NCBI GenBank assembly: GCA_009746045.1
Contig: RPFO01000188.1
Span: 72,501-136,500 of the forward strand
Origin: Mesostigma viride
Taxonomy: Eukaryota > Streptophyta > Mesostigmatophyceae > Mesostigmatales > Mesostigmataceae
Direction: 5' to 3'
DNA: 64,000 bases
Below the pieces are notes generated by a model. It made no database searches. It saw only the letters and a list, made by a program, of their open reading frames with translations, and was not told where the DNA came from. Made by a program: the position numbers and the translations under genes. Every line of letters starts with the position of its first letter. The stretch's first letter is position 1. This document shows, piece by piece, positions 14,103 through 56,666 of this stretch.

Positions 14103-14163
14103 ACAAGGTCTAGCATGAAAATGACTGACCCATCTGCTGCTGGCTTATGTTTACACACAAACT

Positions 14164-16487: not shown

Positions 16488-16552
<65 letters not shown>

Positions 16553-16882
16553 GCTGTTGTTGTTGTTGTTGCTGGAGCTGCCCCCCTTGGAGGGAGACTG
16601 CCCCTTACCCTTGCCCTTGCCCCAGCCCCTGCCCTTGCCCTTGCCCTTGCCCTTGCCCTTGCCCTTAAACATTTGTCCCAGCAGGGACTTGACTTCTGCC
16701 ATAGTGACAGGTCTCTTGCTCCTGTCTTCCCTCTCCCTATCCTCCTCCTCCCTCTCTTCCCCCCTGACCCTCTTTACAGAGGTGCCCATGGCCCCCTGGC
16801 TAAGGGGAGCCAAGGCCAGCTTGATATAATCCAATGCCTCCTTCATGTCCTCCCAGTACTTTGCCATTCCTGTGGCAAGCAT
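15212..16882 (-). CDS. Copia zinc knuckle and integrase
   Basis: This 556-residue frame opens with a charged Gag segment, a GKGKGKGKG repeat and a run of more than 30 Asn (16491-16575, AAC codons). CTRCGMKYHLRPTC is a CCHC zinc knuckle, and a second Cys/His cluster follows. The integrase has an HHCC-type region (LHFLYGHEVS...CQHC), a core Asp in VVGDVFHIKGQSYLALKDAWSR, a second Asp in ALLLDQQF and a Glu in GIIERAIRSIKTLV. The end is DQVLFYKESGLGKVGTWHGPATI. The second Asp motif is DQQF instead of the common DNG.EF. The protein would insert element DNA into the genome. Confidence 0.85.
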
Positions 16883-17658
16883 AGCGTAGGTGTTTTTGTC
16901 AAGTTTGAGTTTCTCAAGGAAGAACGCAGCAAGAACTTGTGATCTAGCTGCTGGACATCAGGACGTGCTTTGATGGCTAGCTCATATTTCTTTGTCTCAG
17001 CCACATAGTCCACTGATGTGACCCTGTATTCCTCTACCCACCTGAATGCCCCATATATGTCCACAGATGAGGGGGTGGAGAGGAGGTCAGTTAGCTCCTT
17101 CATGAAAGCCTCCCAAACTGCCCTAGCCTGCGTGTCCTGCCACTTGGGATACCTACGCTGGAAGACAAGAATGAGATTCTGAATCTGAGAAGAGGACTGA
17201 TGGTAGAAATCCCCCTGCATGAGAGATCCAAACCAATTCTTGACATTCAGTTCCTCCCTAGCCAGCTGCAGAGAGAGAAGTGCATGATTCCCCTGCTCCC
17301 TAGTATACCCCTCAGGCAGCCCCCTGACATTAATCCTATCCACAGGACGGTTTTCATTGTAAGTGGGCAACCTAGAGGGGGATGCAGGGGGAGAGGGAGA
17401 AGATGGTGTTGCTGCTGCAGCATTCACAGGAGAGACCTGCTGAGAGGGAAGTGCTACTTGAGTGAGCTGAGCAGGATGGGCAAACATGGGCTGTGTAGGA
17501 GGGTTAGACAACATAGGGGTGGGCTGGGTGGGGGTGTGAGTGTGTGTCACTTCCCGCCTCCTGCTGCGGGCCTCCTCCCAATCATGGAAGGTGGGAGAGA
17601 GGGACACTTCATCGTCAGTAGGGTTAGTAAGATCATGATGCACCAGGTAGGCAGCCAC
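16843..17658 (-). CDS. Copia Gag-like segment
   Basis: A 271-residue frame has a Thr/Pro-rich stretch (THTHTPTQPTPMLSNPP) and then a helical part (NHALLSLQLAREELNVKNWFGSLMQGDFYHQSSSQIQNLILVFQRRYPKWQDTQARAVWEAFMKEL) and ELAIKARPDVQQLDHKFL. Its position just before the zinc knuckle suggests the capsid part of Gag. It overlaps the next frame by 40 bases in a different phase. Confidence 0.65.
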   Translation of the reverse strand: MAAYLVHHDLTNPTDDEVSLSPTFHDWEEARSRRREVTHTHTPTQPTPMLSNPPTQPMFAHPAQLTQVALPSQQVSPVNAAAATPSSPSPPASPSRLPTYNENRPVDRINVRGLPEGYTREQGNHALLSLQLAREELNVKNWFGSLMQGDFYHQSSSQIQNLILVFQRRYPKWQDTQARAVWEAFMKELTDLLSTPSSVDIYGAFRWVEEYRVTSVDYVAETKKYELAIKARPDVQQLDHKFLLRSSLRNSNLTKTPTLCLPQEWQSTGRT

Positions 17659-18651
17659 CTACCCGCCCCTCTCAGGATGGCGTTGTGCAGGAGCTCCAGC
17701 AAACGCACCAGACGCACCCTGCTGCCCTGCACCCTCCTCCCTGAGAGGAGAGCCTGCAGGGCAGGCAGCAGGTCGTCGCACACCCTGCGTGTGCCCTCTT
17801 GGAGGTTGGGCAGGCCCAGGATGTGCGTGATGATTGCACACACCAGGCTGCCCGCCTCCGCGACGTGCATCTGCTGGCTCCTGTCGGCCAGCCCACGGAA
17901 GGAGGCTGTGGCTGTCTGTATGGCACGCCACACGGCCTCATCACCCAGGGTGATGAAGTCGCGACCTTGCAGGTCGCCCTCCAGCAGTGCTGGTTGCTGC
18001 CCAGCTGCGGTGGGACCCTGGGCCCCTCCGGCCCTGCCAGGGACTTGTCCTTGTTGCGACTAGAGGGGGCCTGCCCCCCAGAGCCGCTGGAGGTGCCCGT
18101 GACACCCTCCATGGGGGCTGCATCCCCCGCCAGCGCCGGAGGCGCCGGCGTCGCTGCCGGGGTCCCTGCGACCCCGGGCGCTTGTGTCGCCGCCGGGGTC
18201 CCTGCGACCCCGGTGGCCTCCTCAGCCACCTGGCCCCCCACGCTGGGCGGGGGAGCCTGCGGCTGAGGTTGGACCCTCTGACCTGCCAGAGGGTCCTGGG
18301 TGGCTTCACCACCCATGGGCGTGTTGGGGGCGTCTGCCGCCCCGCGCTCCGTCGCAGGCGGCATCGCAGCCGCCTCACGCCTATCCGGGCCCCAGCCAAC
18401 TGGCGTGACTTGGGGCCACGGCCCCAACGGAGTCAGCGGATCTCCTGTCGGGCGACCACGCGCAGCGCCTCTCTCTGGCGCTGCCTGGACGCCCACTGAT
18501 CAACAGTGCCGGGGTTGTGCCTCGGCCGATTGGCGAAACAGTACAGCCAAACTGCCACCTGAACCAGGGAGAACTGCATCCTAAGACGCCCCTCGATCAG
18601 CGTGTGCACCCGATGAACCTCTATCGCGTGCATCTCCTCATCTGGAAGCAC
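17547..18651 (-). pseudogene. N-terminal leader region of the Copia Gag, in several frames
   Basis: Down the minus strand come MRFSLVQVAVWLYCFANRP-type sequence (18651-18433), a long Pro/Ala/Gly-rich stretch (18496-18060) and a helical segment, TASFRGLADRSQQMHVAEAGSLVCAIITHILGLPNLQEGTRRVCDDLLPALQALL (17933-17550). They are in different frames. The helical part reads like a structural Gag domain, but I cannot name it. Confidence 0.4.
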
Positions 18652-30526: not shown

Positions 30527-32206
30527 TAATTAATTAATTAGACTCGTGCTCCCGTTGGGGAGTCACGGAGCATTAACCCCGATGGATGGATGGATGGGTG
30601 CACACATTCCTACCGGTCTAAGCTATCTACATTGGCTACATACTACATCTATCTAACAACATTCTAACTACAACATCTATCTAGGCAGCCGCACGCTGCC
30701 CTAGGGGGAGCTATCTAGCGTGCCTCCCGCGGGATTGCACACGCGGGCGCTTCCCCACTGGGGGGGGCTTGTTGTCCTCTATGACCTGGGCCCACTTGGC
30801 CTTGTCCATCATCTTCTTCCAAATCACGGAGAGGCCTAGGCCCCCCATGTCCTCTACTAGCTGTTCCTTGAAGGTGCGGGCCTTGCGGCGTCTAACATCA
30901 CTGGGCCCAGCCCACGTCAGGAGGTGCCGGCCAGGCTGGGCTGGTCGCAGTCCTGCGGGGGGCCACGTGAGGTGTCTACCTGGTTGGTGCGAGCTAGGTG
31001 CCCTACTAGCTGCAGGCGGCGTTGCTTAATTGTGCTGGTGATATAGGGCATGCCCTGGTACAGGTCCTCATTGCGGACATGAGCAGCGTATCCTACTCTG
31101 AAAATGGAACGCAGCATGCTGGTGACCGCGCCGTCCAGCTTGCGGGCCAGGTCGGCGGTGAGGGTCCACGTCTCGGCGCCATACGTGAGAACAGGAAGGA
31201 CGAGGACCTTGAACAGGTCCTGTTTCTCGATCTTGCCCAGGGGCTTGCGCCACAGGGCCCGGTACTGGCGTAAAGCGTGCCAGGCGAGGGAGATGCGGTG
31301 GTCCACATCAACCTCGCAGCTAGGGAGCAGGCTGCCCAGCAGCTTAACGCGGTCCCGATACAGGACTCGAGAGCCGTCTAGGAGGTAGAGGGGCGGCGCT
31401 GGGTTGGTGAGCCCAACCGCCAGGGCCTCTGTCTTCTTGCTGACCTCAAGCCCCACTGCACGGGCCTCGAGAGCCACTGAGGCAGTCAAGCCATGTCTGC
31501 ACGTGCTCAGTGTCCTCGAAGAGGGTGGTGTCGTCTGCGTAAATGATGTCTGCTAGCCGAATCTCCGTGTCCGCACCGCCATGCCAGAATTTGTTAGCAA
31601 CCTGCACTCGGCCTGGTTCCCTGCCCACGATGCGGGCAAATTGCTTGCGCGCCTGAATCATTACGTATTCGACAACAATAATGAACAGGTAGGGCGACAG
31701 CACGCAGCCCTGCCACACACCCTTCTGTAAAGGGCATGGGGGCGTGGTCCCGTAAGAAGTGCGCACCGAAGTGGTGGACCCTTCATACAGGTTGCGGATG
31801 ACAGCAATCAGGGGGCGGGGGATCCGGAACAACTCGAGGATGTCCCAAAGCGCAGGCCAGAAAACCGAATCGAAGGCTTTGATGAAGTCCACCAGCACAA
31901 GGTGCAAAGGGGACTCACCAGGCTGAAGGCGTTGCAGTTCCTCCACCAGTCTGCGAGTAGCGAAGAGCGCCTGTACTGTGTTGCGACCTGAACAGAAGCC
32001 GTGCTGAGTCTCGCTGAGGTGACCGTCCAGGGCCGTGCGCAGGCGGTTCAGGATGAGCCGCATAAGAAGCTTGAGGGGGGCACTTTGAATGCACACCCCT
32101 CTGTAGTTGCCGGGGTCGGCAGGCGACCCCTTGTTCTTGTACAGCATCGTGCGAAAACTGTGTTGCCAGGCCGCTGGAGGTGGTTGCGACGACAGCAGAA
32201 GGCGGT
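30527..32206 (-). mobile_element. LINE with TTAA tail, 1.68 kb
   Basis: CCTCCTCCTAT flanks it at 30516-30526 and 32207-32217. The tail TAATTAATTAATTA and a hairpin GTGCTCCCGTTGGGGAGTCAC mark the 3' end at the left. The element is 5'-truncated just before the reverse transcriptase N-terminus and sits inside an older LINE. Confidence 0.9.
30917..32147 (-). pseudogene. LINE reverse transcriptase, near-complete domain
   Basis: The frame from 32147 reads YKNKGSPADPGNYRGVCIQSAPLKLL..ILNRL, TQHGFCSGRNTVQALFATRRL and LVLVDFIKAFDSV (first Asp). It continues with YEGSTTSVRTSYG..PLQKGVWQGCVLSPYLFIIVVEYVM and DIIYADDTTLFED (YADD) and stops at 31446. The thumb continues in another frame (31489-30917): GLEVSKKTEALAVGL, RVKLLGSLLPSCEVD, LFKVLVLPVLTYGAETWTL, LQLVGHLARTNQVDTS. 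One frameshift near 31480 separates the two. An endonuclease domain is absent because of 5' truncation. Function in a complete element: target-primed reverse transcription. Confidence 0.85.
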
Positions 32207-32582
32207 CCTCCTCCTATGGCAGGGTCCCCTTGTCCTGGCATCGCAACCCACTGGCAAACTTGCGCGCGCCCGGCACCGGCGCGGCGCGACCCGGACCTAT
32301 GTGACACAACTGCTTGAAGATGCAGGGCATCTGGGACTATCCGTACTCCGCGCCCGCATGATTGACAAGCTAGGAGAAATGGGCTGCCATCTGCGATAAG
32401 CACCTTCCTGAGGGGTATGCTCCTATTTTCTCCCCACGGGCCCCGCGGCCCGTTGCCAGCCAGGGTAGAAGTCTGCAGACCTGTGGATGTTATTGGCCCT
32501 AAGGATAGCCGCTACACTACCGCCGTCGTCTACCATTACAGTAGAGGACAGCTCGGATGAGGATTACATCCCCATCTAGTGC
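32207..32582 (+). pseudogene. 3' part of a DSSDEDY-family LINE (split)
   Basis: The plus strand encodes NPLANLRAPGTGAAR, TYVTQLLEDAGHLGLSVLRARMIDK and, at the end, EDSSDEDYIPI, parallel to the minus-strand copy at 7544-7954, with frameshifts. Its 3' untranslated region resumes at 35831 after the piggyBac-like insertion at TTAA. Confidence 0.75.
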
Positions 32583-39940: not shown

Positions 39941-41006
39941 ATGACCCAGGACGGCGGGAACTGGGTCGCCATGTACCACGCGACCCCGGGCGCGGTGGTG
40001 CCGCCCGTGCTTCATGCCAAGAGCACCTCCAGTTTCCTGACGGATGTGCCGCGCTCCCTGGCGGATGCCCTGAAGCTGGCGGACCTGCTACGACAGCGGG
40101 GGAAGTTGCAGGAGGCCTACTCGCTGTACCTTCAAGTCCTGGCGTCTGACCCCCACAACGTGGCCGCCCTGCTGGGCCAGGGGGCCACCTTGAAGCTTCA
40201 GGGACGGGTCATGGAAGCGTTTGCGGTGTTCAAGGTCGCTCTGAGCCTCGAGCCGACCAACTCGTCTGTGCTGGCAGAGTTAGGCCACGTTTACAAGGAG
40301 CAGGACTTGCTGCCGGAGGCCGCCGAGGTAAGAGAGGGGAGGGGGGGGGGCTGGTTTGCAGGAGCGGGATGAGGAGGTCGTCTATGGGGGAACAAACTGG
40401 CTAACTGATGGCCTTGGTGATTGTCGTACCGGGTGCTTTTATTGCTACTATAGTAATCGTTATATGGATGTAGTACTATAGTAATCGTTATATGGATTTA
40501 GTGCTTTATATGGATGTAGTACTAAAGTAATCGTTGTATAGATATAGTACTATAGTAATTGTTATATACTACTATGGATATAGTACTATAGTAATCGTTA
40601 TATGGATGTAGTACTATAGTAATCGTTATATGGATATAGTACTAAAATACTTGTTGTATACTACTATGGATATAGTACTATAGTAATCGTTATATGGATG
40701 TAGTACTATAGTAATCGTTCTATGGATATAGTACTATAGTAATTGTTGCATACTACTATGGATATAGTACTATAGTAATCTTTATATATGGACATCCGTT
40801 GGTGATTGTTGCACTACACTATACTGTCGAACGGGGCTAGCCTGGCCGTCTCCTGCGACGCCTCAGGCTGTCGTACAACATCTATGTCTGTCGTTGGATT
40901 GTGTCAGCCGGTTGTGCTGCGAGGGGGTGCCTTCCTCCCTGGCCCTTCCTGGTCACTAAGCTGCGTGCAAACTGGTTTGCCAGCACAACAATCACAATGT
41001 TTTTCC

Positions 41007-41038
<32 letters not shown>

Positions 41039-44000
41039 GTACGATGGCAGCATCTTTTACACGCTCTGCTGTTTGCCTGGAAAATGTTGCCCTTGGCCCG
41101 AGAATTCGTGTTGCCACAATTTGGGGGGCGTTGCTTTTCCAGCGCTTGCCGGGTGCAGTCGAGGCCTTACCTTTTGTATTCGCGGGGACTTCTGGATTGT
41201 AGGGATTAATTAATGGGACTGGCGGGGTTACCAGAGAAAGGGTTTCAGGAGAAAAGCCAGCAAGGGGCAGTGCATGCTGCCCTGTGCTCTCTTTTTTTGC
41301 GAGGGGGGGAGGACGTTTCCCTGGTGGTGGTCCAAGGAATAGGTTTCTGTTCAGGGACTAGGATTCTTGTCCCTGTAGCATTGGTACCCCACCCCGGCAC
41401 GTGTAGGTGTTGCTGCCACATCAGAGAGTGCACATAATGGGATGTGGTGTATCATTTCATGCCAGCGCGTAGCGGAGGCAAGAAGCAACGGAACCCATCC
41501 ACACACCCATGGTAGGCACTGTCACCAACCCGCCCGCCCGCCCGCCCGCCCGCCCGCCCGCCCGCCCGCCCGCCGCCCGCCCGCCCGCCCGCCCGCCCGC
41601 CGCCCGCCCGCCGCCCGCCCGCCCGCCCGCCGCCGCCCGCCGCCCGCCCGCCCGCCCGCCCGCCCGCCCGCCCGCCCGCCCGCCCGCTGCCCGCCCGCCC
41701 GCCCGCCTGCCCGCCCGCCCCCCACCGCCCGCCTGCCCGCCCACCTGCCCGCCCGCCCACCGCCCGCCTGCCCGCCCGCCAACCCGCCCGCCCGCCCGCC
41801 CGCCCGCCCATCCCTCCCCACCGCCCGCCCGCCCGCCCGCCCGCCCGCGCGCCCTTCCCCACCGCCCACCCGCCCGCCCACCCACCGCCCTCCCTCCCAC
41901 CCGCCCGCCCGCCCCCCTCAGCATCCCACGTCTGAACGCTGGCTGTCCTGTTCTCTTCCCTTCGACATCTCATCCGCCAACACACTACAAGGTGATCCGC
42001 GCACACCGAGTAGCAGCTTGTCGTTTCCGTGCTTTTTACAAGACGGAAGGAATGTGCACGCCCATCAAGACATCATACACCAACCGACACATCAATACAG
42101 GCACACGCCCACTAACATACCAACCAATGCACGCTCGTAACCATCATGCCAACCAATAGACCGACAGATGCTTGCACCAACGAACAGGCTAATCAAGGCT
42201 TGCTCACGGTTTACGCAACACCACACCACCAGATCTACAGCAAGGCGCTAGCGGTCTCGCCGGAGTCCTCGTCCACACGGGAGTCCCTAGCCATGGTGCT
42301 GACCGACATCGGGACCAGGTTCAAGTTGGCGGGGCACACCAAAGATGGCCTCGCAAAGTACTACGAGGCGGTGTCCATAAACCCGAACTACGCGGTAGGT
42401 GCCTTTTGTAGCTAGTTTCTTGGTTGCGTTTATCTTATTAGGCGCTATCAAATCACGACGATGCAGTTTCTGGCGTTAGGTACCTTATGTGTTTGGTTTC
42501 TTGCTGGCTCTATTAAGGACAGTGCTATCAATTGTTATGAGACAGCATCCGATAACCCAAGCTATGCGGTATGTCTCTCCTTAATCTGGATGATTGCACC
42601 TCTTTGCAGTATGGCAGAGCCAGAATACCACTAGGCGGTGCCGTCTGCCAAACCTACCCACGAGGTGTTTTCGTGGGTCTTACATGTGCATCAAACCTTC
42701 CTTTTTCCAAGCACCTACCCGGTCGCTTACGACCAATTCGCCATGCTCTTCCCCCATCGGGCTTGGGCTTGTACAACCACCTACTACACCATGCCATTAT
42801 TGTACCCAATGTTGTCATTCATGTGCCCCCCCCCCCCCTCAAGCATGCTTGTTCAACGTTGGCGTGGTGTTCAGATATCGGTCTCAAATGCCCCACCCCT
42901 CACTGTTCCCTCTTTGACCCTTGACGCCATTCCTTTACAAACCAACCAACCAACCAACCAACCAACCAACCAACCAACCAACCAACCAACCAACCAACCA
43001 ACCAACCAACCAACCAACCAACCAACCAACCAACCAACCAACCAACCAACCAACCAACCAACCAACCAACCAACCAACCAACCAACCAACCAACCAACCA
43101 ACCAACCAACCAACCAACCAACCAACCAACCAACCAACCAACCAACCAACCAACCAACCAACCAACCAACCAACCAACCAACCAACCAATCAACCAACCC
43201 CAATCAACCCACCCACCCACCCCTACTGTTACAGCCTGGCTACTACAACCTGGGCGTCGTGTTCAGCGAGATGGGGGAGTACACCCACGCGCTGCGCCTG
43301 TACGAGAAAGCGGCGCTGCTGCGGCCGCTGTATGCGGAGCCCCACTGCAACATGGGCGTCATCCACAAGAACCAGGGCAACCTGCAGGTGGGTGGCCAGG
43401 GGGGGAGGTGGGGGGGGTCAACCTGCAGGTGGGTGACTAGGGTGTTGGCCTTGACAACGTCCACAGGGGTGGCGGGCGGGCGGGCAGGTGGGCGGGCAGG
43501 CGGGCGGGCGGGGGCGGCGGGCGGGCGGGCGGCGGGCGGCGGGCGGGCGGGCGGGGCGGGCGGGCGGGCGGGCGGGCGGGCGGGCGGGCGGCGGGCGGGC
43601 GGCGGGCGGGCGGGCGGGCGGGCGGCGGCGGGCGGGCGGGCGGGCGGGCGGCGGGCGGGCGGCGGGCGGGCGGGCGGGCGGGGGCGCGGGCGGGCGGGCG
43701 GGCGGGCGGGCGGGCGGGCGGGCGGGGGGGCGGGCGGGCGGGCGGGCGGGCTGGGGGGCGGGCGGGCTGGGGGATGGGGGGATGGGGGGATGGGGGGATG
43801 GGGGGATGGGGGATGGGGGATGGGGATGGGGGGATGGGGGATGGGGGATGGGGGGATGGGGGATGGGGGATGGGGGGATGGGGGGATGGGGGGATGGGGG
43901 GATGGGGGATGGGGGATGGGGGGGGATGGGGGGCTGGGGGGCTGGGGGGGGGGTGGGGGTGGGTGGGGGTGGGGGGCGTGGCATGGTGGGTGGTGGGTGG

Positions 44001-44228
44001 TGGGTGGTGGGTTGAGGTGGGGGAAAGCAACCTGCAGGTGGGTGGCCAGGGGGGCAGGTGGCCGGGGGCAACCTGCAAGTGGGTGGCCAGGGGGGAAGGT
44101 GGCCGGGGGCAACCTGCAAGTGGGTGGCCAGGGGGAAAGGTGGCCGGGGGCAACCTGGGTGGCCATGGGGGCAAACTGCAGGCAGGTGGGCAGGGTATGG
44201 TGGTGGCCGGGACATTAAGGTGTTGGTG

Positions 44229-44263
<35 letters not shown>

Positions 44264-47200
44264 TGTTTTTGGGCTTGGGCTTGGGCTTGGGCTTGGGCAG
44301 GGGAGGGGGGGGGGGTGCCACATGCATGTGTAGGGATGGCATGTGGAGGGATGGAGGTGTGCATGGGGACGGGGTAATTAGCAGGGTGGGTGTAGAAAAG
44401 GGAATTGGCCGGGTAGTCTAATGAGTCTGTGCATGTTTTGGTGTTTTTGCTGCCTGTCCGCCGTCTCCCCCCCCCCCCCCCCCCTCTTTTTCCTCCCCCC
44501 ACTCGCCAGCTGGCGACCCTGTGCTGCAACCAACCCCCCATGTTTACCTTCCCCGCTTTCTTTTCATGTTGTGCCTTCTTCCTCACCCCCCTCCCTCCCC
44601 TCGCCAGCTGGCGATCCAGTGCTACGAGCACTGCCTGGCCATCAACCCCAACTTTGCGATCGCCAAGGCCAACCTGGCGGTCGCGCTCACCGACCTGGGC
44701 ACCAAGGTCAAGCTGCAGGGGGACGTAGTATCGGGGATCCAGCTGTACCACCGGGCGCTGGTCTTCAACCCCCACTACGCGGACGCGTTGTACAACTTGG
44801 GCGTTGCGTACGGGGAGACGATGCAGTACGACAAGGTAGGCATAGAGGGTGGGTTACAGTCTAGGCATAGAAGGTAGGCATAGAGGTTGTGGTGGAATAG
44901 AGGGTGGGTTAGTGTAGGAGTAGAGGGTGGGTTAGTGTAGGAGTAGAGGGTGGGTTAGTGGTGGAGTAGAGGGTGGGTTAGTGGTGGAGTAGAGGGTGGG
45001 TTAGTGTAGGAATAGAGGGTGGGTTAGTGGTGGAGTAGAGGGTGGGTTAGTGGTGGAGTAGAGGGTGGGTTAGTGTAGGAATAGAGGGTGGGTTAGTGGT
45101 GGAGTAGAGGGTGGGTTAGTGGTGGAGTAGAGGGTGGGTTAGTGTAGGAATAGAGGGTGGGTTAGTGTAGGAGAAGAGGGTGGGTTAGTGTAGGAATAGA
45201 GGGTGGGTTAGTGGTGGAGTAGAGGGTGGGTTAGTGTAGGAATAGAGGGTGGGTTAGTGTAGGAATAGAGGGTGGGTTAGTGTAGGAATAGAGGGTGGGT
45301 TAGTGTAGGAGTAGAGGGTGGGTTAGTGTAGGAATAGAGGGTGGGTTAGTGGTGGAGTAGAGGGTGGGTTAGTGGTGGAGTAGAGGGTGGGTTACAGTCT
45401 ACATCGTTTGTGACGCGTGGCGCGTAGGGTGATAGGGTCAGGGCGCCCTGGACTATTTTGTCACCCACTGTATAACCTGGGCATGGCGTCTACATTATGA
45501 CAATAATGATGATAGTAATTATGATAATAATAGATAAGTAAATGAGTAGTAAGGCGAGATGATGGAGTACGGCAAGGGTGTGTGGGGTGTGCTAGGTTTG
45601 TTCACGAATAGTCCGTATCGTTTAGTGTGCCTCCCCTTCCTTTTCACCCAACCCGTGCTGATCTTCTTCCTCCCTATACCACCCCTTTTGTCCCGCCCCA
45701 TCGCGCCCCTGTCCTCCCCCCGTTGCCACTCCCCCTCGCGCCACCTGTGACCGCTCTCCTGCTTAACCCAGGCCATCGTCTGGTATGAGCTGGCGTTCCA
45801 CTTCAACCCTCGCTGCGCTGAGGCGTGCAACAACCTGGGCGTGATATACAAGGACCGGGGGAACCTGGACAAGGCGGTCGAGTGCTACCAGACGGCACTA
45901 CTGCTCAAGCCCCAGTTTGCGCAGCCGCTCAACAACCTCAGCATCGTGTTCACAGTGCAGGTGGGTGTGTCGGTGGCAGCGTAATCTATGTGGCAGCGCG
46001 ACCAAGAGGGGCTTGGTGTGTAACGGTAATGCCGCTCGACAGCCTCATCATCATCTACACGGTGCAGGCAGGGCACCCTTTGGATGAAGGTACTTGGTAG
46101 AGTGACCTAGCTGGGTTTGGTAGAGTGACCTAGCTGGGTTTGGTTTCAGAGGGTAGTGTGACTCGAAACCTCGGCATTGTGTACGCCAGATCAATCTTAA
46201 GTAAGCAGACGGGTGGGGGTGGGCATACTCCTTGGTACATGACCAAACAAAGAGGGCTGTGGGGTAAGAACCTCCGGCTTAAGAACCTCAGCATCGTCTC
46301 CGTCCAGGGGGGAGGATACAGTGGCTGTGTGTGGTAAGAGTGATCAAGAAAGCGGTTCATGTGCTGGTTTTACAGGCGCTGGACATGGCCCTTAGTCGGC
46401 GCTGGACATGGCCCTTATTTGTCATCCTATCGTCCTTGTTCGATTCTTATCCTATGCCCCCCCCCTCCCCCGCTTTGAGCTTATTGTCCTTGTTCGATTC
46501 TTATCTTACCCCCCCCTCCCCCGCTTTGAGCTTATTGTCCTTGTTCGATTCTTATCTTATCCCCCCCTCCCCCGCTTTGAGCTTATTGTCCTTGTTCGAT
46601 TCTTATCTTATCCCCCCCCTCCCCCGCTTTGAGCTTATTATCCTTGTTCGATTCTTATCTTATCCCCCCCCTCCCCCGCTTTGAGCTTATTATCCTTGTT
46701 CGATTCTTATCTTATCCCCCCCCTCCCCCGCTTTGAGCTTATTGTCCTTGTTCGATTCTTATCTTATCCCCCCCCTCCCCCACTTTGAGCTTATTGTCCT
46801 TGTTCGATTCTTATCTTACCCCCCCCCCTCCCCCGCTTTGAGCTTATTGTCCTTGTTCGATTCTTATCTTATCCCCCCCCCTCCCCCGCTTTGAGCTTAT
46901 GGTCCTTGTTCGAGTTTTATCCTATGCCCCCCCTCCCCCGCTTTGAGCTTATTGTCCTTGTTCGATTCTTATCTTACCCCCCCCTCCCCCGCTTTGAGCT
47001 TATTGTCCTTGTTCGATTCTTATCTTATCCCCCCCCCTCCCCCGCTTTGAGCTTATTGTCCTTGTTCGATTCTTATCCTATGCCCCGCCCTCCCCCTTTT
47101 AGATGTCCACGCTGACCAGGCCAAGGTGGGGCCAGCGCTCAACATGATCACCCCACCTTACTTGTCATCTTGAGTATTGAGATATTATCTATTGAGCTCT

Positions 47201-50200
47201 AATCCTGATTTATGTCGTATCCTCCCAGACACGTAGTCACCCACGTGACAGGGTAAGATGGAGGCGGCGCTCGACATGGTCCTGCGCGCCATCATGGCTC
47301 ACCCCATCTCACCCCTGTGTCCCTTATTATCGCATCTCGAATACAACTCCCCTTTACAGGGCAAGATGGAGGCCGCGCTGGACATGATCACGCGCGCGAT
47401 CATGGCCAACCCTGTGTACGCGGAGGCCTACAACAACCTGGGCGTGCTGCACCGCGACGGTGGGCTGATCCCCGAGGCGATTCTGGCGTACGAAAAGTGC
47501 CTCGCGATTGACCCCGACTCGCGCAACGCGGGGCAGGTGGGTGTGTCCATTCAAGTGGTTGTCTACGTGGCACTTTTCAGGATGATCTCTTTCTTTCATA
47601 AATACTCTGCGAGGCGTGCCTTGCAATTGACTTAGACTCACGCAGCGCCGGGCAGGTGGGTGTTCTGCCTGGTTAGTACAATAGTCAGTGCAAACGCGTA
47701 GCTATAGTGAGCTGTAGTGGTTAGTACCATGGTAGTTAGTGCAAACGCGTAGCTATAGTGAGCTATAGTGGTTAGTACAATAGTAGTTGGTGCAAACGCG
47801 TAGCTATAGTGAGCTATAGTGGTTACCAAATCTTACTTGGTGTAGACGCGGGGCCGGTGAGTCATGACTTCGTGCTTTCACGGGCAAAGTCGCTTCTGCA
47901 ACGATATTGTTGAGATAGGTTCCAGTGCAGAGTATTGAGAGTAACGGATAGGTCAGTGAGAGCAAGGTAAAAGTAGTAAGCTTGGTTCCCTGGGTAGTGA
48001 ATAGGGTCCTAGTCTGGATTTCAAGCAAGATTTGTTTGCTAGAGGTCGGGCGAGTGGGGCGCTGTGCTGTTTCTTTATCTGCGTTTTGTTTTGCACTCTC
48101 ATTTCCTTGGTCGCTTGCGGCCTGTCTATGTTTCTCCAGAGCCGTTGGCTCGCGCTCGCCCGTCCCTGTTTTGGCTGGGCTTTTGTATCGATCAAGTGCT
48201 GTGGTGGTTCTTGTCATCGGTTCGATCCAAGTGCTGTGGTGGTTCTTGTCAAGTAGACAACTCTTGGTGCTGTGGTGGTTCTTGTCATCGGATCGATCCA
48301 TGTGCTGTGGTGGTTCTTGTCATCGGATCGATCCAAGTGCTGTGGTGGTTCTTGTCATCGGATCGATCCAAGTGCTGTGGTGGTTCTTGTCATCGGATCG
48401 ATCCATGTGCTGTGGTGGTTCTTGTCATCGGATCGATCCAAGTGCTGTGGTGGTTCTTGTCATCGGATCGATCCATGTGCTGTGGTGGTTCTTGTCATCG
48501 GATCAATCCAAGTGCTGTGGTGGTTCTTGTCATCGGATCGATCCATGTGCTGTGGTGGTTCTTGTCATCGGATCAATCCAAGTGCTGTGTTGGTTCTTGT
48601 CATCGGCGGCGTACTCTTCTGTCCCCGGCCGGCGTCGCGGAACCGCTTGCTCGCGATAGACCTCATCCCAAATCGACCGGGCTCCTGGCTTGCCTTGTGT
48701 TGTCTCATAGACCTCATCCCTAATCGACCGGGCTCCTGTCTTGCCTTGTGTTGTCTCATAGACCTCATCCCTCATCGACCGGGCTCCTGTCTTGCCTTCT
48801 GTTGTCTCTCCCCTCCCCCTATCTACACGTGCACCCCCAGAACCGCCTGCTTGCGCTAAACTACATCCAGGACGAGGGCGACTTCCTATTTGAGGCACAC
48901 AAGTGAGTTACTATCACACTTAATGGGAGGGTTACTATCACACTTAATGGGAGAGGTTACTATCACATTTAATGGGAAGGTTACTATCATACTTAATGGG
49001 AGAGTGACTTAAAATGCTGTCTTATGTGAAGCTGCCTGAACAGTGACCGCCTATTGGCGGCGCACAAGTGAGTCGCATCGCAGCTTTGATGACTGTTTTC
49101 ACCTAAGCTTTCATGCTAATGTGAATGCCATGTGACCTGAACGGATATTCTAGTTGAAATTCTTCCTTGCGAGTGTACATGATGGTGCAGAAATTTGACC
49201 TAGAGGGTGAACCCTTGCCAGCTCTTTTCTCTTTCCACTTTCCATTCCCTTTCCCCACCATCCCTCCCGGCTCCCTGGCGCCGCGCAGGAAGTGGTTTGG
49301 GGCTTGTGTGTTTAGCACCACCCAGTACATCACCACGGTATGCATCACCAGCGAATGCTTGGTCACTTGCAAAAGCTGATACTGCTGCCATTCTCTGCGC
49401 CTCTTTTGCCCCCCATTTCTCGTCCCCCTTTTCTGTGTCCCGCCTTTGCCATTTCCATTTCCATCCGTGTCCCACCAATTTCTCCCTCCCCTCCCCTCTG
49501 CTTTCCTGTGCCGGCCCCTCTCGTTCCCCTGGTCCCCCCTTGTCTGTGGCGGCACCCCGTCGCACAGGAAGTGGGGCGAGCGCTTCTGCCAGCTGTATCC
49601 CCCCCTCCCCTCGCCGCCCCCTGCCACCCCGCGCGACCGCTCCAAGCGCCTCACCCTTGCCTACGTGTCCCCCGACTTCTTCACGCACTCGGTCTCCTAC
49701 TTCATCGAGGCACCGCTGATGCACCACGACTACGAGAGCTTCCGAGTGGTCATTTACAGCGCAACCGCCAAGGCAGACGCCAAGACGCGGCGGTTCAAGC
49801 AGGCGGTGCTCGCCAAGGGGGGGGAGTGGAAGGACGTGGCGGAGGAGAGCGAGGCATCGCTGGCGCAGATGGTGTCGAATGACCGGGTGGATGTGTTGGT
49901 GGAGCTCACGGGCCACACGGCGAATAACCGGCTGGGGGTTATGGCGATGCGACCGGCTCCCGTGCAGGTAAGTGGGCAGGGCAGGTAAGTGGGCAGGGCA
50001 GGTAAGTGGGCAGGGCAGGTAAGTGGGCAGGGCAGGTAAGTGGGCAGGGCAGGTAAGTGGGCAGGGCAGGTAAGTGGGCAGGGCAGGTAAGTGGGCAGGG
50101 CAGGTAAGTGGGCAGGGCAGGTAAGTGGGCAGGGCAGGTAAGTGGGCAGGGCAGGTAAGTGGGCAGGGCAGGTAAGTGGGCAGGGCAGGTAAGTGGGCAG

Positions 50201-53200
50201 GGCAGGCAAGTGGGCAGGGCAGGTAAGTGGGCAGGGCAGGTAAGTGGGCAGGGCAGGTAAGTGGGCAGGGCAGGCAAGTGGGCAGGGCAGGCAAGTGGGC
50301 AGGGCAGGTAAGTGGGCAGGGCAGGTAAGTGTACTAGTCATGCACATGATCATCATGTTCGTTGTAAAAATGCACATGATTATCATGATAATTGTAAAAA
50401 TGCACTTATTCCACATCCGTTGTGCATGTGCAGCTTGGGGTGATGGCCGTGTGGCTGGTGCCAGTGCATGTAAGTGGGAAGGGCGTGAGGTGAGGGGAGA
50501 GGGCAGAGGGGACAGGGGGCAGGGGAGAGGGGACAGGGGAGAGGGGAGAGGGGAGAGGGGAGAGGGGAGAGGGGAGAGGGGAGAGGGGAGAGGGGAGAGG
50601 GGAGAGGGGAGAGGGGAGAGGGGAGAGGGGAGAGGGGAGAGGGGAGAGGGGAGAGGGGAGAGGGGAGAGGGGAGAGGGGAGAGGGGAGAGGGGGGAGGGG
50701 GGAGGGGAGAGAGGGGAGAGAGGGGAAAGGGGAGCGAGCCGAACAGGCGGTTGGGCGGAGGGAGGGCAGTTTGGGCCTGTTTGCAGCGGGGTAAGGGGAA
50801 GGGGAGGAGATTGTTGGCAGGTGAGCAGGCAGGGCAGGCTGTGGCGCTGAAGGATGTGGTGGGTTTGCCATGGGATGTGATGTGTTGAGGCAGTGCTAGG
50901 TTTCCAATAATGGACGTCGTGTTTCAGTTTCGCATCCTTGTGCTTGTGAGGCAGCATGCTTGGGTCGCTTGTTTCCATCGCTCCCACGTGGTTAACTATG
51001 TGTAGCTACGCATACTCTTTGTTCGTCGATTCTGGCACGGCAGGTTACCTGGATCGGCTACCCCAACTCGACGGGCCTGCCGACGGTGGACTACCGTCTC
51101 ACGGACGCGATCTGCGACCCTGTAAACACGCAGCAGCAGTGAGTGGAAGCTATCGATGGCCGTTAGCAGCGACAGGGAGTGGACGCTATTGATGGCCGTT
51201 AGCAGCGACAGGGAGTGGAAGCTATCTACACCAGCAGCAGCACTGAGTGGCAGTTATTGATACTAGTGACAGCCGCGGTGAGGGAAATTTGTGATAGCAT
51301 GGCACACAAGTTTTGATAGCAGCAGCAGGGAGTAGTAGGAAGTGATCGGCAATGAGTTGCTGATAATGATAAGAACAGCGGTAGGGGTGATTAAGGTTGA
51401 TGTCATGTATTCCTAATAAAACCTGCAAACCCGATGCAGCGGCCGCCTACATGGCCCCCAATGGCGGCAGCTTGCAGGGGCAGCTGCCATACCAGCTACT
51501 GATTGATACTGGTTGTCTCCTTGATACCAGCACGTGTCATTGCAACCGACATTGGCAGCAAATTTGTGGCTGGCGACTACTGCTGTGGCACCCAGAAACT
51601 CACCTCTTTCTTTTCTTTTCTTTTCTTTCCTTTCCTTTCCTTTTGATTAGCCCTTCAATAGAGGCCCCTGGCAGGTTGATCAAGGAGCAGGGCCGCCAGG
51701 ATGTGAAGTGTATTGTTGTAGGTTGCACTAGTAGTATATCTATTCTTTTCACACTATCATTTAATCATTATTTTTCATATTATTCCCCTGTCTTTTATTT
51801 ATCCCTCGCGGCATGTTCATGACAGAACTACTTTGCCTGGATTTCAATTGTATGATTGTAGATTTATACAGTTATTAATTGATGCAGTATAATATAAATT
51901 GGATAATTATAATAATCGAATCGTTGCAACCCTCCCTTATGTTCCCTGGGGTTGCTAACCGCCTTGCAGGTTCGTCGAGGAGCTCGTCCGCCTGGACGGC
52001 TGCTTCCTGTGCTACTCCCCCTCCCTCGAGGCCGGCGAGGTGCCCGAGCTGACGCCGGCCGCCGCCAACGGGTTTGTGACGTTTGGCAGCTTCAACAACC
52101 TGGCCAAGATGACCCCCCACGTGCTACGCGTGTGGGCACGCGTGCTGCGCGCGGTGCCCTCGTCGCGGCTTGTGGTCAAGGGCAAGGGATGCTCCTGTCT
52201 GTCGGTGCAGGCGCGGTTCCTGGCGGCAATGGAGGCCGAGGACGTCAGCCCGGCGAGGATCGACCTGTTGCCGCTGCAGCTGCTGAATCATGACCACATG
52301 CAGACGTACGGGCTGATGGACATCAGGTGAGCTGGGGAGACTCTGGTCTGTTGGGCTTTCGTAGATCTCTGTTGGGCTTTTGGTTGATTCAGCCGTCTAG
52401 GTAGTTGTGATGATGACATGCTGGCGTCAGGGGCTCAAGGAGGTCCGAGGAGGATGCTCATACGCAAGATTACCGCGCTCTTGATTGGCAGATGGTGTGG
52501 GCTAAAAAATGGCATCAGGAGAGGGCAGGTTCCTGGTCTGATTAGTCGGTAGATTCAGCCCTCAAGTAGCCATTATGGTGACATGTTTTTCCGCCTTCTT
52601 GTCTTCGGACCTTGGACGCGGTCTTGTATTTTATTCGCGCTTTTCACCTCGATGGTGATGTAAGTCTTCCATCGTTTCCTGCACTGTCTCTCTCTTCTAT
52701 GTTTCCTTCTGTTTTCTCGTCCAGCTTGGACGCTTTCCCGCTCGCCCTGAAATGCTTTCAATGCTTCTAGTATTTCTTGTAGCATTTCCTCTCTTGTCTC
52801 TTCTTCTTTCTTCCCTTGCAGCCTTCTGTATGTGTTCCTTCATGCCGTTCATGGTTCCATCAATTCCTCCCTCCTTTCTTCCCTTGTTTCTTGTATTGTT
52901 TCTCGTTTTCCTTCTGCGCCCTGGCAAGTTCCCCTAGACCGCCAACTCGTCTAATTGTTTCTTCTACTTTTTCTTCTATCGGTGTATTGCTCCTGGCAGC
53001 CTGGACACCTTCCCATACGCGGGTACCACCACGACGTGCGAGTCGCTCTACATGGGCGTGCCCGTGGTGACAAAGCGCGGCAAAGTGCACGCGCACAACG
53101 TGGGCGCGTCGCTGCTCACCAGCATAGGTGGGTGGCCGCAGCATGAGAGGGCGAAAGGGTTATTCGCGTCGCTGCTCACAAGCATAACGCGGTGGTGGCA

Positions 53201-56200
53201 GTATATCAGTGTATAGAGGGTATCATCAAGGTGGTTGGTGTTGCCAGTGACCAGTATAGCTATGTGCGCGATGGCCTTAAGAGGGCATGAGGGCACGAGG
53301 GCACTTTCTTCATTGCCATTAGAACTTTTTTCATGGCCATTGGTCGGAATACCCGAGGGATGCAATTTATGAGGACTGTTTCAGGTGACTCTTTGTGTGG
53401 CTCTCACAAAGACAGCGTAGGGGGCCATCGGTGGACTACCTTGCCTGTTTTCATGACCATCGCAGGACTTGGGCGATTGATACTCGCAATCCTTTCCAAG
53501 TACTTTTTCTTACTTTTTTTTGGGGGGGGGAAGAGGGGGGGGGAGGGTTGCTAGATAAGTGGCCAGCCTTGTACCCCTTGCCTGCTACTTTACCCATTTA
53601 CCCCCACAGGTATCCCACCAGGTCTGGAGGAGCTGATCGCTTTCTTTATATTCCTCTTCTTTATATTCCTTATGACATCATCATCGATTCATACCTGCCC
53701 TTTGCCTGCTATATTACTCTAAAACCCACAACAGCTCATGAGAGGCCTCAAAAGAGCCGATAGCGGTCACGGCTCTGTTCAACTATTACGAGCTGTCTCT
53801 GCCTCTTCTGCCTCTTCTGCCTCTTCTGCCTCTTCTGCCTCTTCTGCCTCTTCTGCCTCTTCTGCCTCTTCTGCCTCTTCTGCCTCTTCTGCCTCTTCTG
53901 CCTCTTCTGCCTCTTCTGCCTCTTCTGCCTCTTCTGCCTCTTCTGCCTCTTCTGCCTCTTCTGCCTCTTCTGCCTCTTCTGCCTCTTCTGCCTCTTCTGC
54001 CTCTTCTGCCTCTTCTGCCTCTTCTGCCTCTTCTGCCTCTTCTGCCTCTTCTGCCTCTTCTGCCTTGTTACCCCTACCTTAACCGCCCCCACCCCAAACA
54101 GGCCTCGGAGAGCTGAATGCTCTCCTTACAGCCCTCGTCTACACATCTCATCATATCTTCTCTTTTGCCCGCGCTTCCCATAACCATCCCAACAGGCCTC
54201 GAGGAGCTCATTGCGGACAACGATGACCAATTCGTGGACATCGCCGCCAGCCTGGCGCGCGAGCTGCCCCGCCTGGCCCACCTGCGGCGCACGCTCCGCC
54301 CCCGCATGCTGGCATCCGGGCTGTGCCAGGCGGGCCCCTTTGTCTCCCGCCTCGAGAACGTGTACCGGTCACTATGGGAGCGCTACTGTGACCAGGGCGA
54401 GGCACCGGAGGAGGACGTGCCCGTTCCGGCAACCAGCAGTGCTGCTGCTGTGGAGAATGTCCACCTGGTTCGACCGCATCAGCCCATGGCCATGCGTGCG
54501 TCATCTGGTGGAGGTTCCACGGCGGCATGTTCATCCGAAGGGTTAGGGGCAGGGGTGGGTGGCGTGGGGAGCTCCCCTCCGCTCGGTGTCCCGACGAGCG
54601 GCCACAGCCACCACAGCATGGTCGCCCATTCGTCGGCCAGCTTGAACCACGCAGGGCCGGATCCGCAGCACCATGCGCTGCAGACCGCGCACGCGAGTGG
54701 AGGGGGGCAACCGGGAGGGGACGACCAGCAGCACCATCACCACCAACAACAGCAACAGCAACAGCAACAGAGTGAGCTGACTGGGCAGGGGCAGGGGCAT
54801 GTGATGCCGCCAGGGTCCCTGCATCACCCTCATGCCACAACGCCGCCTGCTGGCTCGCGCGCGGCCTCGTCGCCCCTGGCCGATATGCTGCCCCCGAACC
54901 ACCCGGCCCTTTTCATGATCTCTTCGTCAGCTGGCTCGTCGTGCGGGACTGCTGCCAGCATGGCGTCCGGGGCGGATGCCAGCCGTCATGGCCATGGCGA
55001 TCTTAACAGCCACAGCGGTGGCCTCAACCACCTCAGCGGGGGCCTGAATAACCGCAGTGCTGGCAGCGGGGGGTTGACCGTGGCGATGGTCGCACCGGCG
55101 CCGCATTCGTCGATGCTGCCATCCCACGCAAACTCCGCCGCGCAGCTTCAGCAGCAGCAGCAGCAACAGCAAGCCGCGGCGGCAGCGGCGGTCGCGGCGG
55201 CGGTGGCGGCGGCGGCGGCAGCACAGCAGGAACAGCAGCAGCAAGCCACATTGCTTGCCCAACAACAACAACAAGCGACAGCAGCTGCAGCAGCTGCCGC
55301 CGCCGCTGCAGCGGCGCATCACCCTGGCCTGCAACACCCTGGGATTTTCGGCAGCCAGGGAGGGGGAATATTCTACCCCCTCCCCCTGTCCTACGAGTCA
55401 GCAGCCCAAGCGCATGCGCACGCGGCCAGCCTCGTCACCTCCTCGCCCGCCCATCTGCTGCCCTTCATGTTCGGGAATGGAGGCGCCGCGCGGGCCCCTG
55501 CAGGGTGCGACGACGCCACCCTCCAGGCGGCCGCCGCCGCCGCGGTCATGCAGGTGCAGCTCTACACGGGGGGGGGACTTGGGGGGGGGCCACCGGCGGC
55601 CGGCCCGCCGCTCATGGTCCCTATTCCGATGCCTTCGGTGCCACCCCCTGCGGACCTGGGTCGCGCGTTCCAGGGCTACCCCCTGGGTGGACAGGTGGCG
55701 GATCCCCGGGCGCACATCGGCCCGCTTTTCTCCTCGGCCGAAGCAGCCGCGGCGGCCGCGCAGCACGCATCGGTGGCTCAGGGCCAGACCCCCCTGATGC
55801 CGGCCCCCCCTAGCCCTGGGGGTGGCGCGATGGTGCGCCTTGGGGGTGTCATGAGTTTGGCGGGTAATGGTGTCGTCGGCCTTGGGGGTGGTGGAGTCCA
55901 TGCGGCGACCGGCCATATATCCCCCCATGGAAGTGTTCACGTGTCTGCGCATGGCAGCGGTCCCATCTCGCCCCATGGCCTGGGGCATGGTTCGCCACAT
56001 GGCACGGGCCACATCTCGCCACATGGCATCGCCTCAGGCGGCGCCCACGCGGGCGTGCAAGGGAGCGGGGGGCCTGTACTAGGGTCCGCCGTCGCAGAGG
56101 CCGTGAGCCAGCAAGCCCTAACTCAGCAGGCCTTAACTCAGCAGGCCTTAACCCAGCAGGCGCTGAACCAGCAGGCCATGATGGGGGAGGCTCATAATGG

Positions 56201-56666
56201 GGGCCTGGTAGGAGTGGGGGGAGTGGGGGTGGGGTGCATGGGGTCCGGGGGGGGCATCGGGGATGTGAGTTCGCAGGAATCGGTTCGGCGATCCGCGTTC
56301 GTGGTATCTGCAGACGCTCGGTTGGTGGCCAATGGCGGCGCAGGGTCCTCGCGGATAGCCCCCCGGCAGGGCCCCCCGCTGTTCTCCCCCCAGTCGGGGA
56401 CGCCCCGGCAGTCATCCAGCCTTCCGTCAAACGGCAACGTCGGTAGCGGCGTGCACCCGGGGGGTGGTAACGGCTTTCAGCCATATGGGGTGGCGGCTGG
56501 GTATCCACAGGTATTGACGGGTGCCAGTCCAGGGGTTCAGCTCCGCATGATGCTGCCCTCGCGAATCGTGTCGGGCGGCGGCAGCGAGGGCTGGGTGGCA
56601 TCACATGGCAGGGTGGCCCCTGGGGGGTGGGTTGTGTCGGGCATCCCTGGCGAGTGCCAGCAGTGA
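39941..56666 (+). CDS. SPY: SPINDLY-like protein O-glycosyltransferase (12 exons)
   Basis: Exons: 39941-40327, 42233-42394, 43235-43387, 44608-44835, 45772-45960, 47360-47536, 48841-48902, 49568-49967, 51044-51138, 51970-52326, 53000-53127, 54196-56666. All junctions are GT-AG and keep frame, giving 1602 residues. Residues about 30-440 form 11 TPRs (for example [31 protein letters not shown]). The catalytic half starts at about 453 ([24 protein letters not shown]), with [64 protein letters not shown] (Lys 688, matching the Lys I recall as essential in plant SPY) and [23 protein letters not shown]. Plant SPY is known as a protein O-fucosyltransferase acting on nuclear and cytosolic proteins. 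The homology is with SPY more than with animal OGT. Odd points: a C-terminal low-complexity extension of about 750 residues and introns filled with junction copies. No signal peptide is seen. Confidence 0.95.
40440..40800. repeat. AT-rich minisatellite in SPY intron 1
   Basis: About ten copies of a 26-30 base unit around ATAGTACTATAGTAATCGTT and ATATGGAT. It does not resemble exon sequence. Confidence 0.85.
41009..41038. repeat. AAT microsatellite in SPY intron 1
   Basis: About ten AAT units. Confidence 0.9.
41529..41930. repeat. CCCG-type repeat in SPY intron 1
   Basis: Four hundred bases of CGCC/CCCG units with CCGCCG interruptions and a few CCTG, CCCA and TCCCC variants. The mirror composition (GGGC) occurs in intron 3. 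Confidence 0.95.
42534..42568 (+). repeat. Imperfect copy of the exon 2 end inside intron 2
   Basis: TATGAGACAGCATCCGATAACCC..CTATGCG followed by GTATGT mirrors the real exon end at 42360-42394 ([12 protein letters not shown] then GTAGGT). Upstream, 42476-42503 also resembles the first bases of intron 2, so the whole junction was duplicated. Confidence 0.75.
42937..43196. repeat. CCAA tetranucleotide array in SPY intron 2
   Basis: About 64 almost perfect CCAA units end about 40 bases before the exon 3 acceptor. They give long meaningless PTNQ and VGWL frames on the two strands. Confidence 0.98.
43460..43757. repeat. GGGC-type repeat in SPY intron 3
   Basis: GCGGGCGG units with occasional GGCGGCG and GGGGG interruptions, opposite in strand composition to the array in intron 1. 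Confidence 0.95.
43758..43975. repeat. GGGGGAT repeat in SPY intron 3
   Basis: About 25 units of ATGGGGG and ATGGGGGG. The strand is very G-rich and could form quadruplex structures in DNA or pre-mRNA. Confidence 0.9.
44028..44165 (+). repeat. Multiple copies of the exon 3 donor junction in intron 3
   Basis: The real junction is GGCAACCTGCAG then GTGGGTGGCCAGG (43376-43400). CAACCTGCA followed by GGTGGGTGGCC or AGTGGGTGGCC recurs at 44028, 44069 and 44110, with shorter copies at 43418 and 44150. Confidence 0.85.
44229..44266. repeat. Poly-T and GT runs in SPY intron 3
   Basis: Twenty-two T residues are followed by a run of GT dinucleotides. Confidence 0.9.
44836..45395 (+). repeat. Minisatellite grown from the intron 4 donor
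   Basis: The intron begins GTAGGCATAGAGGGTGGGTTA. Units of about 22 bases, GTAGGAATAGAGGGTGGGTTA or GTGGAGTAGAGGGTGGGTTA, then repeat about 24 times, so the first unit is the splice donor itself. Confidence 0.9.
46430..47095. repeat. 52-base minisatellite in SPY intron 5
   Basis: About 12 copies of a unit with CTTTGAGCTTATTGTCCTTG, TTCGATTCTTATCTTA and a C-rich tract of variable length. The pyrimidine-rich tracts resemble branch-site-to-acceptor regions. Confidence 0.95.
47248..47304 (+). repeat. Copy of the exon 6 start inside intron 5
   Basis: ACAGGGTAAGATGGAGGCGG and what follows encode [18 protein letters not shown] if one extra T is ignored. The real exon 6 start 110 bases downstream encodes [18 protein letters not shown]. 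The acceptor-like ACAG is preserved. A weaker copy lies at 47116-47153 (CCAGCGCTCAACATGATCAC). Confidence 0.85.
47616..47670 (+). repeat. Copy of the exon 6 end inside intron 6
   Basis: TGCCTTGCAATTGACTTAGA..CACGCAGCGCCGGGCAG then GTGGGTG mirrors the real end TGCCTCGCGATTGACC..CGGGGCAG then GTGGGTG at 47500-47543, including the donor. Confidence 0.85.
47670..47825. repeat. Minisatellite in SPY intron 6
   Basis: Three to four copies of a unit of about 50 bases with GTGCAAACGCGTAGCTATAG, TGAGCTATAGTGGTTAGTAC and AATAGTAGT. Confidence 0.85.
48196..48606. repeat. 35-base minisatellite in SPY intron 6
   Basis: About 12 copies of TGCTGTGGTGGTTCTTGTCA followed by TCGGATCGATCCAAG. Copies with CCATG and CCAAG, and CAATCC and CGATCC, partly alternate, suggesting duplication of two-unit blocks. 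Confidence 0.95.
48655..48810. repeat. Three-copy repeat before the exon 7 acceptor
   Basis: Units of about 52 bases with AGACCTCATCCC, ATCGACCGGGCTCCTG and CTTGCCTTGTGTTGTCTC. They end in the polypyrimidine tract that leads to the acceptor at 48840. Confidence 0.85.
48903..49067 (+). repeat. Donor-proximal repeat and copy of the exon 7 end in intron 7
   Basis: GTTACTATCACACTTAATGGGAG is repeated four times directly from the donor. At 49044-49067 GACCGCCTATTGGCGGCGCACAA then GTGAGT mirrors the real junction (AACCGCCTGCTTGCG...GAGGCACACAA then GTGAGT). Confidence 0.8.
49968..50331 (+). repeat. Array of about 21 tandem splice donors in SPY intron 8
   Basis: Starting exactly at the exon 8 donor, the 17-base unit GTAAGTGGGCAGGGCAG is repeated about 21 times, a few copies with GCAAGT. 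Each unit contains CAG followed by GTAAGT, a near-ideal 5' splice site. The minus strand gives a meaningless [17 protein letters not shown] frame. Confidence 0.97.
50431..50475 (+). repeat. Copy of the exon 8 end further inside intron 8
   Basis: CTTGGGGTGATGGCCGTGTGG..GTGCCAGTGCAT then GTAAGTGGGAAGGG mirrors CTGGGGGTTATGGCGATGCG..CTCCCGTGCAG then GTAAGTGGGCAGGG at 49931-49980. Confidence 0.85.
50480..50735. repeat. GGGGAGA repeat in SPY intron 8
   Basis: About 30 units of GAGAGGG, purine-only on the plus strand. Confidence 0.95.
51139..51265 (+). repeat. Donor-derived tandem repeat in SPY intron 9
   Basis: The intron starts GTGAGTGGAAGCTATCGATG and CCGTTAGCAGCGACAG. The unit recurs with GGAGTGG in place of GTGAGTGG at about 51175 and 51211. 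CAGCAGCAGCACTGAGTGGCAG at about 51233 echoes the exon end CAGCAGCAGTGAGTGGAAG. Confidence 0.75.
51604..51645. repeat. TTTTC microsatellite in SPY intron 9
   Basis: Eight imperfect TTTTC/TTTCC units. Confidence 0.85.
53797..54064. repeat. CTCTTCTGC nonamer array in SPY intron 11
   Basis: About 30 perfect copies of a 9-base unit, read as Ser-Ala-Ser on one strand. The pyrimidine-rich strand is the transcribed sense. Confidence 0.97.
54435..56663 (+). other. Low-complexity C-terminal extension of the SPY-like protein
   Basis: After the conserved [15 protein letters not shown] the frame stays open for about 740 residues rich in Gly, Ala, Gln, His, Ser and Pro. It has [13 protein letters not shown] (about 54735-54770), poly-Q and poly-A blocks (55150-55310) and repeated SHGS/ISPHG.GH (55915-56030) and [11 protein letters not shown] (56105-56180) modules. 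It contains no stop and no splice-like boundary before 56664. Plant SPY ends soon after the catalytic domain. It is in the same exon as conserved sequence, so it is probably translated; its role is unknown. Confidence 0.75.

Follow-up and report, generated by a model that had tools for sequence, protein, structure and literature searches.

The introns of a SPINDLY-type (SPY) gene of Mesostigma viride (Streptophyta) contain imperfect copies of the exon ends and starts that border them. The gene occupies positions 39941–56666 (+) of a 64,000-nt stretch of contig RPFO01000188.1 (assembly GCA_009746045.1), hereafter referred to as the window, and its model, rebuilt from the raw sequence, comprises 12 exons and 11 introns, all of the GT…AG type. 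With a probability that we place at about 0.8, the copies are decayed short tandem arrays whose repeat unit straddled an exon-intron junction.

The 40 nt of exon next to each splice site were aligned to the adjoining intron, and the scores were compared with those of 2000 dinucleotide shuffles. For the 22 edges of the 11 introns (D, donor edge or exon end; A, acceptor edge or exon start), the summed score was 314, compared to a shuffle mean of 182.1 (standard deviation 4.9, maximum 202). The exon-edge copies proposed in an earlier note on this DNA are thus real, and more frequent than in sequences that preserve the dinucleotide composition. Control sums remained at the null level when antisense edges (180), reversed edges (184) or the other introns (182) were used. 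A score of at least 13 was reached by 13 of the 22 edges, while the shuffles yielded 0.11 such edges on average and at most 2. When arrays detected by Tandem Repeats Finder (TRF) were masked, 12 edges still attained this score, compared to none in other introns. When edges were extended to as much as 60 nt, the highest-scoring of the 11 introns was the edge's own in 15 of 22 cases (approximately 2 expected by chance). The signal was confined to the edge itself: exon tiles beginning more than 20 nt away scored at the null level.

Individually, 12 of the 22 edges, spread over 10 of 11 introns, were significant at p<0.01; nine edges in seven introns remained after Bonferroni correction. The earlier note had claimed copies in at least nine introns (its list of intervals covers eight), a figure that holds at the former threshold and falls short at the latter. 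Intron 1 contains no edge at p<0.01 (D1, p = 0.015; A1, p = 0.67), and self-alignment, in which each intron was taken with as much as 100 nt of the exons beside it, gave no match there.

The exons, which form an open spliced frame of 1602 codons, are located on the + strand at positions 39941–40327, 42233–42394, 43235–43387, 44608–44835, 45772–45960 and 47360–47536 (exons 1–6) and 48841–48902, 49568–49967, 51044–51138, 51970–52326, 53000–53127 and 54196–56666 (exons 7–12). The copies identified in the introns lie on the same strand. About ten of them had not been reported before. Among the 15 intervals already listed, 13 were supported; the other two, 49282–49305 and 52721–52748, were not borne out as copies (edge A7, p = 0.60; edge A10, p = 0.12). 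Three of the supported intervals (42536–42568 and both acceptor copies of intron 11) are weak in the edge test.

The array at the exon 2 donor (42361–42568; junction 42394/42395; self-alignment offset 81) includes a copy at 42536–42568, which is supported by the spacer test described below (p = 0.0015; edge D2, p = 0.068), and a newly found one near 42455–42475, carrying a 14-nt deletion. Intron 2 also contains a new copy of the exon 3 start at 42847–42874 (22/28 nt identical; edge p = 0.0005), in which the AG has been lost. The exon 3 donor array (43375–44181), built of 41-bp units and broken up by G-rich repeats, comprises the real junction and copies at 43416–43428, 44027–44157 (3.2 copies) and 44169–44181, the first and last of which are additions to the earlier list. 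These are the least diverged of all copies (self-alignments of 88–89% over 66–68 nt). Near the opposite end of the intron, the intron 3 acceptor and the exon 4 start are copied at 44492–44532 (83% over 41 nt, offset 98; edge p = 0.004). A new copy of the exon 4 end, lacking the GT and containing an in-frame stop, was detected in intron 4 at 45549–45576 (23/28 nt identical; edge p = 0.0005).

In intron 5, the exon 5 donor array (45924–46350) consists of the real junction and copies at 46031–46067, about 46160–46182 and about 46277–46297, with a self-alignment of 94 nt at 66% identity (offset 107). Deep in the same intron, the segment 46376–46410 holds two short, previously unlisted copies of a stretch of the exon 6 start (12/12 and 15/17 nt identical), which fall 10–15 nt short of the exon edge. 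The exon 6 acceptor array (47107–47412; real junction 47359/47360) contains copies at 47122–47151 (new) and 47252–47304, and its self-alignments reach 81% over 64 nt (offset 108) and 80% over 35 nt (offset 240). If the copied acceptor at 47252 were used, 36 in-frame residues would be added, the first of which nearly repeat the start of exon 6. In intron 6, the end of exon 6 is copied with its donor at 47616–47663 (83% over 48 nt, offset 119; edge p = 0.0005), CAG|GTGGGT being the same as in the real exon 6 donor; a new copy of the exon 7 start, with the AG lost, lies at 48641–48668 (22/28 nt identical; edge p = 0.0005).

The exon 7 end and donor are copied in intron 7 at 49045–49073 (83% over 29 nt, offset 165; edge p = 0.0055), and CAA|GTGAGT is again the same as in the real donor. 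At the exon 8 donor, TRF identified a young array of a 17-bp unit (21.6 copies; 49964–50331) that takes in the final 4 nt of exon 8 together with the donor; past this array, the end of exon 8 is copied once more along with its donor (50433–50484; 77% over 52 nt, offset 502; edge p = 0.001). A second young array (36-bp unit, 2.7 copies; 51130–51226; also found by TRF) takes in the exon 9 donor and the 9 exon nucleotides before it, and the intron 9 acceptor with the exon 10 start is copied at 51667–51701 (77% over 35 nt, offset 295; edge p = 0.004), this copy (also delimited as 51675–51701) being new. Intron 10 likewise holds a new copy, derived from the exon 10 end (52410–52441; 24/31 nt identical; edge p = 0.0005), which ends 6 nt before the edge and contains an in-frame stop; it gave no junction-spanning self-alignment, the only match obtained for intron 10 being internal. 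In intron 11, the exon 11 end is copied at 53165–53186 (21/22 nt identical; edge p = 0.0005; GT lost), and the acceptor with the exon 12 start at both 53603–53640 (76% over 38 nt) and 54089–54120 (81% over 32 nt). For these last two copies the edge value is p = 0.040 (A11) and the self-alignments have E = 7e-4 and 5e-3.

The placement and order of the copies point to tandem duplication across the junctions. Fifteen of 18 copies lie in the half of the intron adjoining their own edge, at a mean relative distance of 0.28 (Kolmogorov–Smirnov p = 0.0012); the count was made after setting aside the copies of the intron 3 donor, the matches of low strength (D1, D9 and A4) and those ending far from the edge. 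Most copies terminate at the junction. At three donors, those of introns 3 (41-bp unit), 8 and 9, the units of young arrays recognised by TRF include exon bases. We also examined whether copies of the same edge share a spacer, before a donor copy or after an acceptor copy, that is unlike the real exon. Shared spacers were found at the donors of exon 2 (p = 0.0015) and exon 5 (p = 0.0005, 0.023 and 0.058 for its pairs) and at the acceptors of exon 6 (p = 0.072) and exon 12 (p = 0.0275), and the combined Fisher value is 2.8e-7, although the exon 5 donor contributes three pairs that depend on one another.

For 18 copies, with the intron 3 donor copies left out, mismatches between copy and exon number 26/170, 29/173 and 49/170 at codon positions 1, 2 and 3, respectively. 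A bias of this kind would be expected if the copy decayed evenly while the adjacent exon changed mostly at silent sites. Stop codons are present in two copies (those of edges D4 and D10). The splice dinucleotides are often kept, as had been noted earlier (in 14 of 20 copies; with those of the intron 3 donor set aside, in 10 of 15), at a level that we estimate to be close to neutral decay at some 80% identity. Ancestral residues were sought at 13 sites where copy and exon differ and the exon itself lacks a residue conserved in at least 80% of the family. In 3 of these the copy encodes the family residue, compared to 1.12 expected (P = 0.086, not significant).

These observations suggest the following scheme. 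Between 17 and about 120 bp of exon edge and adjoining intron would be duplicated head to tail, two or three times at some junctions. The spliceosome would stay with the outermost donor or acceptor, leaving the protein unchanged; splicing at an inner site would in many cases introduce a frameshift or a stop, so that retention of the outer site would follow from survival. The inner copies would then turn into intron and decay neutrally, while selection holds the exon. Repeated rounds, together with duplications occurring wholly within introns, would lengthen the introns from both ends. In this scheme, we infer that the outermost site stayed in use, that decay was neutral and that the mutations stem from staggered breaks repaired by fill-in or from slippage. 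As the exons change slowly, they allow the growth history of these introns to be read.

The intron side of the copies provides a mixed picture. It resembles the intron flank of the real junction more closely than do random places in the same intron (Fisher p = 2.4e-7, 22 rows), in a test that includes the splice signal and owes much of its p value to five intron 3 donor rows. Several points weigh against junction-straddling duplication. When the splice signal was skipped and the flanks of other introns served as the null, flank similarity was weak for the 14 copies considered (p about 0.08; this set excludes the donors of introns 3 and 8 as well as two weak edges, D9 and A4). The flank excess is approximately 0.9 points, compared to about 3–11 in simulations of tandem duplication with equal rates, run at the exon divergence that was observed, and copies D4, A2 and A6 (45549, 42847 and 48641) have no visible intron side. 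Furthermore, the spacer windows were set by eye from the alignments, and the evidence as a whole comes from the genomic sequence of one gene. The low flank match implies either that intron flanks turn over faster than the copied exon stretches or that some of the copies arose by templated insertion.

In templated insertion, repair of a break within the intron would have copied a nearby junction stretch and pasted it tens of bases away instead of in head-to-tail order. The weak intron-flank match of many copies, and the three that have no visible intron side, are what such repair would leave. It nevertheless appears unlikely as the general explanation, given that copies of the same edge share a spacer, that they mostly end at the junction and that the young arrays are clearly tandem. 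Even less probable is selection of the copies as decoy or alternative splice sites. The copied donors at 47616 and 49045 do match the real ones over nine bases, the dinucleotide is kept in most copies, and the acceptor at 47252 opens an in-frame extension. However, codon positions 1 and 2 of the copies have decayed, retention of the dinucleotide does not depart from the decay expectation, and several copies have lost the splice site.

The earlier note had also drawn a link to models in which duplication of AGGT-containing exon sequence creates an intron. Such duplications belong to the same class of event, and several SPY junctions read AG|GT, but remnants of intron creation are expected at the far ends of introns, with the upstream exon end copied to the intron 3′ end and the downstream exon start to the 5′ end. 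The SPY copies, predominantly in the half adjoining their own edge, do not fit this placement, and we regard an origin in intron creation as very improbable; the process is growth of existing introns. The positions of the copies also disfavour a paralogue as their source. Chance, base composition and assembly error are hardly tenable. TRF tandem repeats, making up approximately 42% of the intron sequence, do invite spurious matches, but the shuffles, the antisense, reversed and other-intron controls and the masked comparison reject chance and composition as the cause, and assembly error is ruled out for the diverged copies, i.e. most of them, whose exon stretches differ by about 5–33%. Short tandem duplication across the junctions, followed by decay, accordingly remains the preferred explanation.

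Duplication is not limited to the junctions. Among TRF-masked tiles internal to the introns, 37 of 300 have local duplicates (score of at least 13), compared to 1.0% in other introns. By depth, the proportion is 18% for tiles no more than 60 nt from a splice site (n = 55) and 6% for deep tiles (n = 84), and 12/22 for the exon edges. In simulations, the ratio of detection between an intron tile and an exon edge falls from about 1 at low divergence to 0.1–0.3 at high divergence (0.28–0.34 at d = 0.25 with indels). Since exon conservation keeps duplications readable for longer at the edges, this bias may explain the junction excess, and a junction hot spot is no more than a possibility. Duplications throughout the introns, best read at exon edges, would fit these results. 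The earlier suggestion of growth by short duplications stands in that the duplications extend across junctions; that they are centred on junctions as a matter of mechanism is unsupported, as intron-internal tiles are also duplicated and conserved exons preserve junction copies longer. Transposon and intergenic tiles showed little excess (41/1085, compared to 2.3% elsewhere), although this DNA may be young. In exon 12, which has a low-complexity tail, local duplicates were likewise found for 14 of 111 tiles (compared to 4.5%).

Minisatellites at or near exon-intron junctions are a known general class. The young arrays of introns 3, 8 and 9 resemble them in their head-to-tail units of exon and intron bases; the SPY copies differ in being mostly decayed remains that are read via the exon and occur at the majority of junctions in a single gene. 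For the old arrays, the label of minisatellite is tentative: it derives from the spacer shared at four edges, and their intron flanks match weakly. Introner elements, which recur across many introns, similarly place repeated sequence within introns, whereas within the SPY gene the copies are at the null level in the other ten introns.

That new introns can arise by tandem duplication is well documented, as in ATP2A1 and the potato RdRp (PMC4974935, PMC3443670). Both systems involve short duplications that include splice sites and, in the precise form, leave the protein unchanged; there a new intron arises, whereas in SPY introns at existing junctions lengthen and the copies adjoin their own edge. 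Small tandem duplications by fill-in repair are also known, with the mechanism, dependent on CST and Pol alpha-primase, demonstrated in mammalian cells (PMC8355091). The SPY copies belong to the same mutation class and size range, a likeness seen at the level of sequence alone. No title or abstract opening among the literature matches listed concerned junction-straddling growth across a gene.

Long introns are usually credited to transposons. The SPY introns have a mean length of 1083 bp, and the genome of M. viride NIES-296 has a mean intron length of 1141.87 bp, with repetitive elements occupying 30.1% of intron space (PMC6947507), which leaves much length unexplained. If junction duplication were common in M. 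viride, it would constitute a testable, transposon-free route to long introns, with the exon edge as a reference. That it is the main route of intron lengthening genome-wide, faster than intron-internal duplication and with the outermost copy systematically kept, is a tentative proposal that we consider somewhat doubtful; if true, exon edges across the genome would preserve a fossil record of how introns grew, including duplications now unreadable within introns. Junctions of this kind also offer natural tests of how the spliceosome chooses among near-identical donors placed tens to about 100 bases apart. Codon-usage scoring found no other clear host gene in the window that could serve as a replicate.

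The SPY protein is 59–63% identical to the SPINDLY proteins of plants and other streptophytes (120 matches listed). In a tree with midpoint rooting only, it is placed on a long branch adjoining Chlorokybus, and no Mesostigma-named entry was present among the matches listed for the full-length query (120 of 785). With 1602 residues, it is longer than the SPY proteins among the matches listed (about 880–1260 residues). Most of exon 12 (54396–56666) encodes a long tail in which Gln, Ala, Gly and His are abundant.

Pfam analysis of 29 distinct open reading frames of the window yielded two reverse-transcriptase matches, one of them under the curated cut-off. An RVT_1 reverse transcriptase is encoded at 31446–32213 (−) (E = 1e-23). 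The second match, RVT_2 at 12762–14144, below the Pfam cut-off, falls in a retroelement-like region (12762–18600, −). Within this region, the segment 16760–18600 (−) and Mesostigma entry P0121 have a protein family in common (pieces at 74–91% identity), and the open reading frame 15212–16957 (−) gave a 100% match to P0121, from the Mesvir1 gene set, across 7% of the query.

Simple arrays also occur beside the SPY exons. A nearly perfect (AACC)71 array (42940–43221) stops 13 nt upstream of the exon 3 acceptor and occupies the place in which a pyrimidine tract and a branch point would be expected. In intron 1, a (CCCG)n array (41529–41914) is the reverse complement of (GGCG)n in intron 3 (43471–43767), so that the pair brackets exons 2 and 3. 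The predicted duplex between them (−780 kcal/mol, 282 pairs) is the strongest of 15 array pairs (next, −539), and such pairing in the pre-mRNA could lead to skipping or circularisation of exons 2–3.

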